From NCBI GenBank assembly GCA_945787155.1, contig CALZHD010000015.1, positions 1 through 33,019 of the forward strand: a stretch of 33,019 nucleotides of DNA. Direction: 5' to 3'. Under the pieces are notes generated by a model. The model was not told the origin of the DNA and searched no databases. It saw only the letters and a list, made by a program, of their open reading frames with translations. This document shows, piece by piece, positions 12,918 through 17,655 of this stretch (positions are counted from its first letter, which is position 1; each line of letters begins with the position of its first letter). This DNA is from an uncultured Gammaproteobacteria bacterium (GTDB taxonomy: Bacteria > Pseudomonadota > Gammaproteobacteria > SZUA-140). The translations under genes were made by a program, and so were the position numbers.

Positions 12918-13224
12918 TGTGATTACTCACTTTTCAGTTTGTCAGTTACGCGATTACGGCGGCAATTTACAGGGTAATGCTATTGCTCATCAGTAGTGTC
13001 TTGTTAGGTGGCCTGCTGTCCTCGATGTTACGTATTTATCGGCTTAAATCGGTAAATTTTGAGTGAAAAGTAGGTGGATAGCTGTCGAGCGGGGACATGA
13101 TTGCTAACATGCTGATATATTGTGAAGATTATTGATTATTGGGATATTGAATCGGAGAGATAAAGATATTATTCGAGTGGATTGTTTATAATGGCAGTGA
13201 TCAAAAACCGTGGTGCACATACTG
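12918..13224. other. Divergent intergenic region between response regulator and mutL
   Basis: About 300 bp without a gene, AT-rich. It must carry the start signals of the divergent response regulator gene and mutL. A TATAAT hexamer at 13187-13192 would place mutL transcription near 13199, only about 26 bases before the ATG at 13225. No good -35 is seen. TGAAAAGT and its complement ACTTTTCA occur on opposite sides of the region, but the distance makes pairing doubtful. I see no RNA gene. Confidence 0.45.
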
Positions 13225-15120
13225 ATGTCTAATCCCAATCCTGTTTCTGAATCTCAAAACGCTGCGGCGAGGCGGATTCATCATTTATCATCTCAGTTGG
13301 CGAATCAAATTGCAGCGGGTGAAGTGGTCGAGCGTCCCGCTTCGGTGGTGAAAGAGTTATTAGAAAATAGCCTGGATGCTGGGGCCACTCAGATTGAGAT
13401 CGATGTTGAGCAGGGCGGCACACGTCTTATCCGGGTGAGAGATAATGGCGTCGGTATTCATAGGGATGACCTTGTGTTGGCGCTGAATCGGCATGCCACC
13501 AGTAAGATCATCGACGCCAGCGATCTGGATGGTATCGTCACCCTTGGTTTCCGTGGCGAGGCACTTCCCAGTATCGCCTCGATTTCTCGCATGAGTCTGG
13601 TGTCACGTCAGCAGGGGGATGACAGCGGTTGGCGTGTCAGTAGTGAAGGCTATGCACCTGAGGAAGCGGCAGTGCCCTGTGCGCATCCATTGGGGACGAC
13701 CGTTGAGATTCGGGACCTCTTTTTCAATACCCCTGCGCGGCGGAAATTTCTGCGTAAAGAGAAGACGGAATTTAATCACCTGGAAGAGGTGATTAAGCGG
13801 ATTGCATTAAGTCGTTTTGATGTGGGATTGCAGCTCAAACACAATCAACGCGTAGTGTTGTCACTGCGGCCTGTCACCAACGTTGATCACTATATTGACC
13901 GGGTAGAGGCCGTCTGTGGACAGCCGTTCAGGCAGCATGCACTGGCGATAGAATATGAAGCCGCAGGGCTGCGATTGTGGGGCTGGGTTGCGCTACCGGC
14001 ATTTTCACGTAGTCAGGCCGATATGCAGTATTTTTACGTGAATGGGCGGGTGGTTCGCGACAAGTTGGTGAGTCATGCCATTCGTCAGGCCTACCGGGAT
14101 GTGCTTTATCACGGACGTCACCCCGCGTTTGTGCTGAATCTTGAGATGTCTTCCGAACAGGTTGATGTCAATGTTCACCCTACCAAGCACGAGGTCCGTT
14201 TCCGTGAAGGACGGTTGGCACATGATTTTATTTTTCGAGCGATTCACCGTTCACTGGCTGAGGTGAGACCGGGGGATGCCGAGAGCGGTATTTCGACCGA
14301 TCAACCGCTGCCGAGCCTGGGGCCAAACCTAAGCACGCCAGCCACGCAGGTCCCGCTCCAGACCTCATCCCAGCCAGGCGCTAGCCTGCGTGGCGCCACG
14401 ACAACCTATACTCGACAGTCAAATATCTCACTAGGGATGCGTGAGCCATTGAACGATGTCTATCAGGCACTTGCTAACGTCACTGCAATACCGGCTGCAA
14501 TCGATGTTGAGTCAGAAGAGACTGATGCATCAGAAGTGCCGCCGTTGGGGTTTGCCGTGGCGCAGCTGCACGGGGTCTATATTCTGGCGCAGAATGAAGC
14601 GGGATTGATCCTGGTGGATATGCATGCCGCACATGAGCGTATTACTTATGAGTGGATGAAGCGGACGTTTAATGAGGGAGGGGTTAAGTCCCAGCCGTTG
14701 CTGGTGCCGCTGTCGATTGCTGTCAATCAGAAAGAGGCGGCGTTGGCGGAGGAATTCTCAACGGTATTTGCTTCGCTGGGATTTGATATTCAGCGCATTG
14801 CCCCGGAAGTATTGGTGGTACGTGAGGTGCCGACATTGCTCAGCGATGCAGATATCGAAACATTGGTGCGCGATGTGCTGGCCGATATTAATACCTATGG
14901 AGAGAGCGTGCGTGTGCAGGAAAGGCTCAACGAGGTGTTGTCAACGATGGCATGCCATGGTTCTGTACGCGCAAATCGAATGCTGACGTTACCTGAGATG
15001 AATGCTTTGTTACGCGATATGGAGCGTACTGAGCGCAGTGGGCAGTGTAATCATGGCCGTCCGACGTGGACGCAAATGACACTTGCTGAGCTTGATAAGC
15101 TTTTTTTACGCGGTAGGTAG
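13225..15120 (+). CDS. mutL: DNA mismatch repair protein MutL, endonuclease type
   Basis: MutL links mismatch recognition by MutS to strand removal. The 631 aa product has the GHKL ATPase domain with ANQIAAGEVVERPASVVKEL, ENSLDAGAT, RDNGVGI, TLGFRGEALPSI and NTPARRKFL, then a linker (about 345-440) and the C-terminal dimerisation domain. That domain carries D465-MHAAHE-RITYE, matching the DQHA-x2-E-x4-E metal-binding motif with Gln replaced by Met. It also has ACHGSVRANRML and C608-NHGRP, the other conserved endonuclease motifs; E. coli MutL lacks this set. So it probably nicks DNA itself. I chose the ATG at 13225; a GTG at 13210 is the alternative, and neither has a strong ribosome site. It converges on the small RNA/purB region. 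Confidence 0.95.
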   Translation: MSNPNPVSESQNAAARRIHHLSSQLANQIAAGEVVERPASVVKELLENSLDAGATQIEIDVEQGGTRLIRVRDNGVGIHRDDLVLALNRHATSKIIDASDLDGIVTLGFRGEALPSIASISRMSLVSRQQGDDSGWRVSSEGYAPEEAAVPCAHPLGTTVEIRDLFFNTPARRKFLRKEKTEFNHLEEVIKRIALSRFDVGLQLKHNQRVVLSLRPVTNVDHYIDRVEAVCGQPFRQHALAIEYEAAGLRLWGWVALPAFSRSQADMQYFYVNGRVVRDKLVSHAIRQAYRDVLYHGRHPAFVLNLEMSSEQVDVNVHPTKHEVRFREGRLAHDFIFRAIHRSLAEVRPGDAESGISTDQPLPSLGPNLSTPATQVPLQTSSQPGASLRGATTTYTRQSNISLGMREPLNDVYQALANVTAIPAAIDVESEETDASEVPPLGFAVAQLHGVYILAQNEAGLILVDMHAAHERITYEWMKRTFNEGGVKSQPLLVPLSIAVNQKEAALAEEFSTVFASLGFDIQRIAPEVLVVREVPTLLSDADIETLVRDVLADINTYGESVRVQERLNEVLSTMACHGSVRANRMLTLPEMNALLRDMERTERSGQCNHGRPTWTQMTLAELDKLFLRGR

Positions 15121-15219
15121 AGGCTCCTCTGAAAAGGTAGCTTTTTAAATACTATGAAGTTCCGTCAGAATGCATCAAGCCGAAAATTAGGCTGAGTAAA
15201 AACTATTAGTTGAAGCTAT

Positions 15220-15320
15220 AAAAAACCCGTGTCGCAAGGAAGGAGTATGCGGGGTCACGGGCCAAAGGCACTTCGATGATGCATTGAAAGAATGAGTAGG
15301 GGGTACTTCAAAACCTTCAC
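15220..15320 (-). ncRNA. Candidate small RNA, downstream sibling (A)
   Basis: Predicted RNA of about 100 nt transcribed leftwards from near 15319-15320. It begins TGAAGGTT. TGAAGG (15319-15314) pairs with CTTTCA (15290-15285) through one G-U. A C-rich single strand (ACCCCCTACTC) lies between. The terminator is CCCGTG (15261-15256) with CACGGG (15231-15226), and inside it CGCA/TGCG closing an 11-base loop TACTCCTTCCT, followed by six T (15225-15220). The loop is complementary to AGGAAGGAG-type ribosome sites. It is homologous over its length to the unit at 15407-15516. Expression is inferred, not shown. Confidence 0.62.
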
Positions 15321-15325
15321 TTTCA

Positions 15326-15331
15326 ATTATC
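15326..15331 (-). promoter_or_regulatory. -10 element for small RNA A
   Basis: GATAAT on the minus strand (15331 to 15326). Its first base lies 28.5 bases from the centre of the CRP-type site at 15352-15367, identical to the distance in the second unit. No -35 match is present, as expected for a class II activator promoter. Predicted start about 15319. Confidence 0.5.
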
Positions 15332-15351
15332 CATATCCCTGAATTGGATGG

Positions 15352-15367
15352 CGTGATTACAGTCACA
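15352..15367 (-). promoter_or_regulatory. CRP/Vfr-type binding site for small RNA A
   Basis: TGTGA-CTGTAA-TCACG on the minus strand matches the CRP consensus TGTGA-N6-TCACA in nine of ten defined bases. Its centre (15359.5) is at about -40.5 from the predicted start, the class II position. The regulator itself is not encoded in this window. Confidence 0.55.
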
Positions 15368-15406
15368 TCTTTATCGATATTTTGTGTTATCAAATCAGAG
15401 CAGAAT

Positions 15407-15516
15407 AAAAAAAGCCCGTGTCGCAAAGGGGAGCAATGCGTGGCACGGACTAAAGTTGCTTAGACGACGCTTTGAAGGATAAAAGGGAGGTGGAGAGCTC
15501 CTCCGGCAACCTTCAA
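15407..15516 (-). ncRNA. Candidate small RNA, upstream sibling (B)
   Basis: Predicted RNA of about 110 nt transcribed leftwards from near 15516. It begins TTGAAGGTT; TTGAAGG (15516-15510) pairs with CCTTCAA (15478-15472). Between them lies CTCTCCACCTCCC, an anti-Shine-Dalgarno-like stretch that can be free or paired with GGAGG (GGAGG/CCTCC versus GGAG/CTCC). The terminator pairs AGTCCGTG (15451-15444) with CACGGGCT (15420-15413); one pair is U-G, possible only in the minus-strand RNA. Inside, CGCA/TGCG closes an 11-base loop TTGCTCCCCTT. Seven T follow (15413-15407). It lies 113 bp after the purB stop on the same strand and is homologous to the unit at 15220-15320. Confidence 0.65.
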
Positions 15517-15522
15517 GATTCT

Positions 15523-15528
15523 ATTATC
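15523..15528 (-). promoter_or_regulatory. -10 element for small RNA B
   Basis: GATAAT on the minus strand (15528 to 15523), 28.5 bases from the centre of the CRP-type site. It predicts transcription starting at about 15516, exactly where the 5' stem of the RNA begins. No -35 match. Confidence 0.55.
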
Positions 15529-15548
15529 TACACTGACAGGGGGAAATC

Positions 15549-15564
15549 TGTGAGTAGACTCACA
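15549..15564 (-). promoter_or_regulatory. CRP/Vfr-type binding site for small RNA B
   Basis: TGTGA-GTCTAC-TCACA on the minus strand is a perfect match to the CRP consensus half-sites. Its centre at 15556.5 is at about -40.5 from the predicted start, the class II position. The same bases form an inverted repeat (CTGTGAG/CTCACAG, 15548-15554 and 15559-15565), so a tetraloop hairpin is a formal alternative. Confidence 0.62.
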
Positions 15565-15579
15565 GTTTGATGCTTTGGC

Positions 15580-15619
15580 ATAGCGTGGCACACAGGAGGC
15601 TTTCTGTATGCCACGCTAT
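15580..15619. repeat. Long inverted repeat after purB
   Basis: ATAGCGTGGCA (15580-15590) and TGCCACGCTAT (15609-15619) are perfect 11-bp arms. The 18-base loop contains a further ACAG/CTGT pair. It starts 11 bases after the purB stop on the minus strand. No T tract follows on either strand, so it is not a standard intrinsic terminator; it may protect the purB mRNA 3' end or mark Rho-dependent termination. Confidence 0.6.
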
Positions 15620-15629
15620 AGTGAGAAGA

Positions 15630-17655
<2,026 letters not shown>

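Follow-up and report, generated by a model that had tools for sequence, protein, structure and literature searches.

Downstream of purB in the window, by which the whole analysed stretch of 33,019 nucleotides is meant, two homologous units on the minus strand are probably best read as sibling small RNAs (sRNAs), which are induced by CRP-cAMP and repress mRNAs by means of C-rich loops directed at ribosome-binding sites. The anatomy of both units, their mutual homology, their conservation, the architecture of their promoters and the presence of genes for CRP, adenylate cyclase and Hfq in the genome were computed here. The initial annotation had described a tandem pair of sibling sRNAs of no known family, and this description was upheld, as the two copies were found to be homologous and conserved, to possess independent promoters and terminators and to have no match in Rfam. 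Judged from sequence, they look like an undescribed sRNA family that would respond to the carbon state; its kind is known, since the mode of action would be that of CyaR and of the sibling sRNAs of Neisseria, but membership in either of these is not supported.

Locus and anatomy of the two units

The units lie between purB (adenylosuccinate lyase; 15630–17036, minus strand; NCBIfam NF006764, 1.6e-228), the conserved upstream neighbour, and the convergent mutL (13210–15120, plus strand; NCBIfam NF000949, 2.4e-266), in whose place other genes stand in some relatives. Unit A (15407–15516, minus strand, about 110 nt) consists, according to sequence and fold, of a 5' stem-loop, a linker and an intrinsic terminator with T7, and unit B (15220–15320, minus strand, about 101 nt), recognised as its sibling by a covariance model of unit A alone, has a terminator with T6. 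Read on the minus strand, the 5' stem of unit A is formed by TTGAAGG (15516–15510) and CCTTCAA (15478–15472), and its terminator by the arms AGTCCGTG (15451–15444) and CACGGGCT (15420–15413) with an inner CGCA/TGCG, an 11-base loop, TTGCTCCCCTT (15426–15436, minus strand), which is the second C-rich loop of the unit, and T7 at 15413–15407. In unit B the 5' stem is composed of TGAAGG (15319–15314) and CTTTCA (15290–15285) with one G-U pair, and the terminator follows the same plan, with the 11-base loop TACTCCTTCCT and T6 at 15225–15220. On direct reading the two related minus-strand units, their stems, CGCA/TGCG, 11-base loops and T7/T6 tracts, all of which had been claimed before, proved correct to the base; the stem differences between the copies indeed keep pairing (with the one G-U in unit B), and the T(U)-G pair at 15449/15415 is present as claimed.

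Anti-Shine-Dalgarno words (CUCC, CCUCC) occur in the C/U-rich apical loops. In unit A the apical part of hairpin 1 carries the C/U-rich stretch CTCTCCACCTCCC (15485–15497, minus strand), to which a C-rich loop corresponds in homologs, and in unit B the C-rich apical stretch of hairpin 1 (15298–15305, minus strand) is located around CCCCCTA. A CCUCC-type seed and a C-rich terminator loop are both found in unit A (CUCUCCACCUCCC, UUGCUCCCCUU); they are weaker in unit B, which has no CCUCC, and some distant homologs (L061b, L063) have no CUCC. The unpaired linker, of consensus RUCRUCNRAGYR and with the sequence GCGTCGTCTAAGCAACTTT at 15452–15470 (minus strand), is conserved across the genus according to alignments and can still be recognised in unit B; it may constitute a second, more specific seed.

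The claimed helices were recovered by folding, with whole-unit z-scores of -2.2 (A) and -1.4 (B), which are modest, so that the folding of one sequence is by itself no strong argument and the evidence that goes beyond chance is comparative; the 5' part of unit B folds no better than shuffled sequences (z = +0.1), and the mean z of the 5' part over 30 units, homologs included, was -1.9. When the units were read as peptide-coding, no convincing small ORF was detected in the sequence. Of the general properties of a trans-acting base-pairing sRNA, an own promoter, an own intrinsic terminator, the lack of an ORF and a length of about 50–300 nt are all present at the sequence level. A generic promoter and terminator scan detected neither unit, owing to loop size and promoter type.

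A long palindrome (ATAGCGTGGCATACAG...CTGTGTGCCACGCTAT) without a T tract follows the purB stop codon immediately, at 15573–15628, and several congeners (e.g., G004, G007 and G009) display a hairpin of other sequence at the same place. Possibly it constitutes a 3'-end or processing element of purB; the miRNA models of Rfam that matched it were dismissed as chance matches.

Putative promoters and regulatory genes

Each unit possesses its own CRP-like operator of the form TGTGA-N6-TCACA/G. That of unit A, TGTGAGTCTACTCACA (15549–15564, minus strand), agrees with TGTGA-N6-TCACA at 10 of 10 positions, is centred at about -41.5 from the predicted start and is present in orthologs; that of unit B, TGTGACTGTAATCACG (15352–15367, minus strand), agrees at nine of ten, and its counterpart is kept before unit B in both G005 and G006. 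The -10 boxes, both GATAAT, are situated at 15523–15528 (unit A, minus strand; predicted start 15514–15516; 92% conserved in the genus) and 15326–15331 (unit B, minus strand; predicted start about 15319–15321). From the operator centre to the end of the -10 box 34 bases were counted in both units, which, with a start 6–8 bases beyond the box, places the operator near -41.5. This is the position of CRP in class II CRP-activated promoters, and both units are preceded by a putative promoter of this architecture. The pattern TGYGA-N6-TCAC-N21..24-ATAAT has only two matches in the 3.19-Mb genome, one before A and one before B, and the reversed pattern, used as a control over the whole genome, has none. 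A similar promoter precedes the purB-linked unit in congeners and elsewhere in the order; 20–21 nt usually separate the site from the -10 box.

In the genome there are genes for a CRP/Vfr ortholog, whose recognition helix, GCSREMAGR, is of the CRP type (best PDB matches: Vfr, 2.8e-88, and E. coli CAP, 1.5e-85), for two class III adenylate cyclases and for Hfq. In seven of the 20 genomes from the order no Hfq was detected, and some of these seven are at least 90% complete. As a separate observation, a second regulator of the Crp family, which has an SREM..R recognition helix (L199; G000:C56, 1480–2139), adjoins a CHASE2-like protein, and its contig also encodes a class III cyclase domain; regulator and cyclase domain are possibly a dedicated cyclic-nucleotide pair.

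Conservation within the genus

A covariance model built from seven unit-A ortholog sequences only matched unit B with E = 5.7e-9 in the whole 3.19-Mb genome and nothing in it beyond units A and B. Homologs of unit A were found in nine of the ten genomes of the genus (E 1e-12 to 1e-23), and the model yielded 12 units in these nine, two each in G000, G005 and G006 and one each in the six others, copy numbers which are lower bounds, as most genomes are draft assemblies. At least one unit directly 3' of purB was present in all eight congeners in which purB was found as well as in the genome of the window; the tenth genome (G002) gave no purB match. The condition set by the initial annotation against its own reading, that structure and start signals be missing from close relatives with the surrounding genes retained, was checked and did not refute it.

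Mean pairwise identity over nine genomes of the genus amounts to 92% in the -10 box, 79% in the CRP site and 71% in the RNA, as opposed to 33% in the gap between purB and promoter and 25% in the region after unit A, and the contrast between RNA and flanks indicates selection. Covariation within the genus is modest, with two pairs changed on both sides and 93–99% of cells paired in the outer helices, because stems are nearly identical within clades and replaced between clades; whole stems have been replaced in unit B of both G005 and G006 and elsewhere in the family, which gives a stronger compensatory signal.

In most relatives the unit is single-copy. In G009 (locus L009), about 280–320 bases past the end of purB, a remnant of unit B was observed, in which two exact 13-mers stand in order and the middle is deleted. 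From the occurrence of unit B in separate genomes and from this remnant we infer that the unit was duplicated long ago within the genus, with more than one loss of B.

Distribution beyond the genus

All ten other genomes of the family, which as examined here makes up the whole order, carry one unit after purB, and the gene beyond it varies (its start, read by eye, is mutL-like, serS-like or different again). The stems of these units are entirely different. What the units have in common is a TGTGA-N6-TCAC-like site, separated by 20–21 nt from a GATAAT-like box, and two hairpins, a long one whose loop is C/U-rich and that of the terminator, whose loop is C-rich. An exchange of arms between units lowers pairing to 47–53%, a figure which shows only that the stems differ, since the helices compared are minimum-energy folds and pair by construction. 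When the model of the genus alone was run over 96 kb of other loci, nine matches with E of 0.016–1.3 were obtained, all nine of them in units downstream of purB.

In more distant lineages, three consecutive modules of promoter, hairpin and terminator were found 3' of purB in L015 (G041) and L187 (G173), two in an uncultured Chromatiaceae bacterium (L061), one each in L063 and L112, and one weak unit in Cycloclasticus (L069). The unit in L083, a Chromatiales MAG, is identical in sequence to that of G011 of the family. Most other purB loci examined had no unit. Homology beyond the genus is suggested by synteny, architecture and weak model scores.

Comparison with known sRNA families

In Rfam, only chance matches were obtained for 15180–15640 of the window at the gathering score and at E<=10, and no family beyond chance for 14 homologous loci at E<=1; the replacement of stem sequences may explain why the units are absent from Rfam. 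In the literature covered, which leaves out most subscription papers and hence does not prove absence, no description of a purB-linked sRNA was found.

CyaR (RyeE, RF00112), an sRNA of enterobacteria including E. coli, base-pairs with ompX at the Shine-Dalgarno region and in Yersinia is dependent on CRP and Hfq (PMC11795201). It is activated by CRP, as is predicted for the present units from operator and spacing, and in MG1655 a CRP-like site was located by scan at about -42 to -42.5 from the cyaR start, compared to about -41.5 here. Like unit A it possesses a CCUCC seed, and its terminator loop carries CUCCC, so that site and motifs follow the same logic as in the present units. However, CyaR is a single copy of 87 nt without a long 5' stem bearing a C-rich loop, and cyaR adjoins trhP (yegQ) and ogrK, whereas the present units adjoin purB. 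Membership in CyaR was rejected, since RF00112 gave no match at E<=10 (15180–15640) or E<=1 (the 14 homologous loci) and the locus differs; conversely, model R1 of the present units did not match the CyaR locus.

NmsRA and NmsRB (NgncR_162/163) are, according to the accessible text of PMC5362039, homologous tandem sRNAs of one intergenic region with UC-rich anti-Shine-Dalgarno regions, which repress mRNAs of the TCA cycle and related ones. They resemble the present units in being tandem homologs with anti-Shine-Dalgarno loops and differ in being betaproteobacterial, in having three stem-loops and in their locus, and CRP control is not described in that portion of the source (PMC5362039). No Neisseria family was among the Rfam matches of the units, either for 15180–15640 of the window or for the 14 homologous loci. 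For sX13 of the Xanthomonadaceae, as for alpha-r7 sRNAs, stable stems are reported in the available part of PMC3771888 whose apical loops are C-rich and act in the repression of mRNAs that have G-rich motifs, as is a fixed synteny to one housekeeping gene with variable flanks, which the present units share; sX13 is unlike them in its position beside polA, its three hairpins and its independence of Hfq, and a CRP link is not described there (PMC3771888). The present units have two main hairpins and purB synteny instead of the three hairpins and the polA synteny of sX13. Spot 42 (E. coli spf) is likewise a CRP-linked sRNA of carbon metabolism 3' of a housekeeping gene, but it is repressed by CRP-cAMP, to go by a title cited in PMC3771888, is found at the polA locus and was without an Rfam match here.

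Proposed mode of action and alternatives

According to the mechanism proposed, units A and B would be trans-acting siblings descended from one old sRNA gene 3' of purB, which was duplicated in tandem in the genus. Each would be transcribed from its own class II promoter, with CRP-cAMP at about -41.5 and the GATAAT -10 box, from starts near 15515 (A) and 15320 (B) to its own intrinsic terminator. At high cAMP, i.e., in a poor carbon or energy state, both sRNAs would accumulate, and the C/U-rich loops of hairpin 1 and terminator would pair with GGAGG-like, purine-rich ribosome-binding sites of several mRNAs and block their translation, probably with the assistance of Hfq. Translational repression induced by CRP-cAMP is proposed because CyaR, NmsRA/B and sX13 are likewise built with C/U-rich loops complementary to the GGAGG of ribosome-binding sites and a poly-U terminator, and for these three repression via Shine-Dalgarno or G-rich motifs has been demonstrated. 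Transcription, start sites, CRP binding, Hfq dependence and Shine-Dalgarno repression are predictions in this scheme, and a C-rich loop is suited to Shine-Dalgarno targeting but is not proof of it.

Four proteins of the Crp/Fnr type encoded in the genome exceed the Pfam cut-off and a further one matches more weakly, and the paralog beside the CHASE2-like protein also has an SREM..R helix, so that the activator could be a paralog, e.g., a nitric-oxide or redox sensor, and the signal a different one. We consider this rather unlikely, as the site is TGTGA-N6-TCACA, with the half-site of CRP and not the TTGAT type of FNR, and as the CRP recognition residues are kept in the CRP ortholog. It is also improbable that the units are genuine CRP-regulated sRNAs which act mainly by sequestering a protein, either a binder of C-rich RNA or, via GGA motifs, CsrA, instead of by base pairing. 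The GGAGGA in hairpin 1 of unit A and the repeated UCC tracts of some relatives (e.g., G019 and G017) would fit such a role, yet GGAGG is missing from unit B and from the orthologs of G003, G004, G007 and G009, can pair with the CCUCC of unit A itself and is not conserved, whereas the C-rich loop is.

That the hairpins form a 3' UTR or attenuator of purB, with terminators that serve purB and prevent collision with mutL and no independent RNA, was deemed quite improbable. Such a role would agree with the position of the units 3' of purB on the same strand and with a gap that offers no other obvious intrinsic terminator for purB; it does not account for a promoter and CRP site of its own before each unit, a combination unique in the genome, nor for the variable gap between purB and unit (33% identity), nor for the tandem recurrence of two or three complete promoter-RNA-terminator modules, a recurrence that a terminator does not need. 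Least of all is it to be expected that the units are chance structures or decaying repeats without function: modest folding z-scores for single sequences and the absence of unit B from most congeners, with its remnant only in G009, could be cited in favour, but promoter and RNA are conserved against diverged flanks and are present across the whole order.

Wider occurrence of the module

It is quite possible, albeit a tentative proposal, that the units belong to a widespread, hitherto unnamed purB-tied sRNA family of several gammaproteobacterial lineages, in which a module of class II CRP promoter, C-rich hairpin and C-rich terminator multiplied repeatedly (two to three in tandem), stems turned over completely while loops and promoter were kept, and which would form a main post-transcriptional arm of CRP-cAMP in bacteria outside enterobacteria. 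The well-studied sRNAs under CRP-cAMP control are mainly those of enterobacteria and vibrios. If uncultured environmental gammaproteobacteria do possess a conserved, CRP-driven anti-Shine-Dalgarno sRNA, the same circuit, from a low-energy signal via a C-rich RNA to repression at the ribosome-binding site, would exist, or would have arisen again, in distant lineages. The units also provide a clear example both of duplication and loss of sibling sRNAs and of an sRNA whose synteny and architecture were maintained as its stem sequence was replaced.

In L013 and L011 (G017, G019) the loop of hairpin 1 was observed to have grown into UCC tandem repeats, which suggests slippage-driven growth of the anti-Shine-Dalgarno tract. 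A class-wide scan for the promoter pattern produced a few matches besides this family and one other (f23). In L181 (G360), around 1500–1610, a full module of CRP site, GATAAT, C-rich hairpin and terminator was found in another family, upstream of an rnd-like gene instead of next to purB; the remaining matches of the scan look like chance or mRNA leaders.
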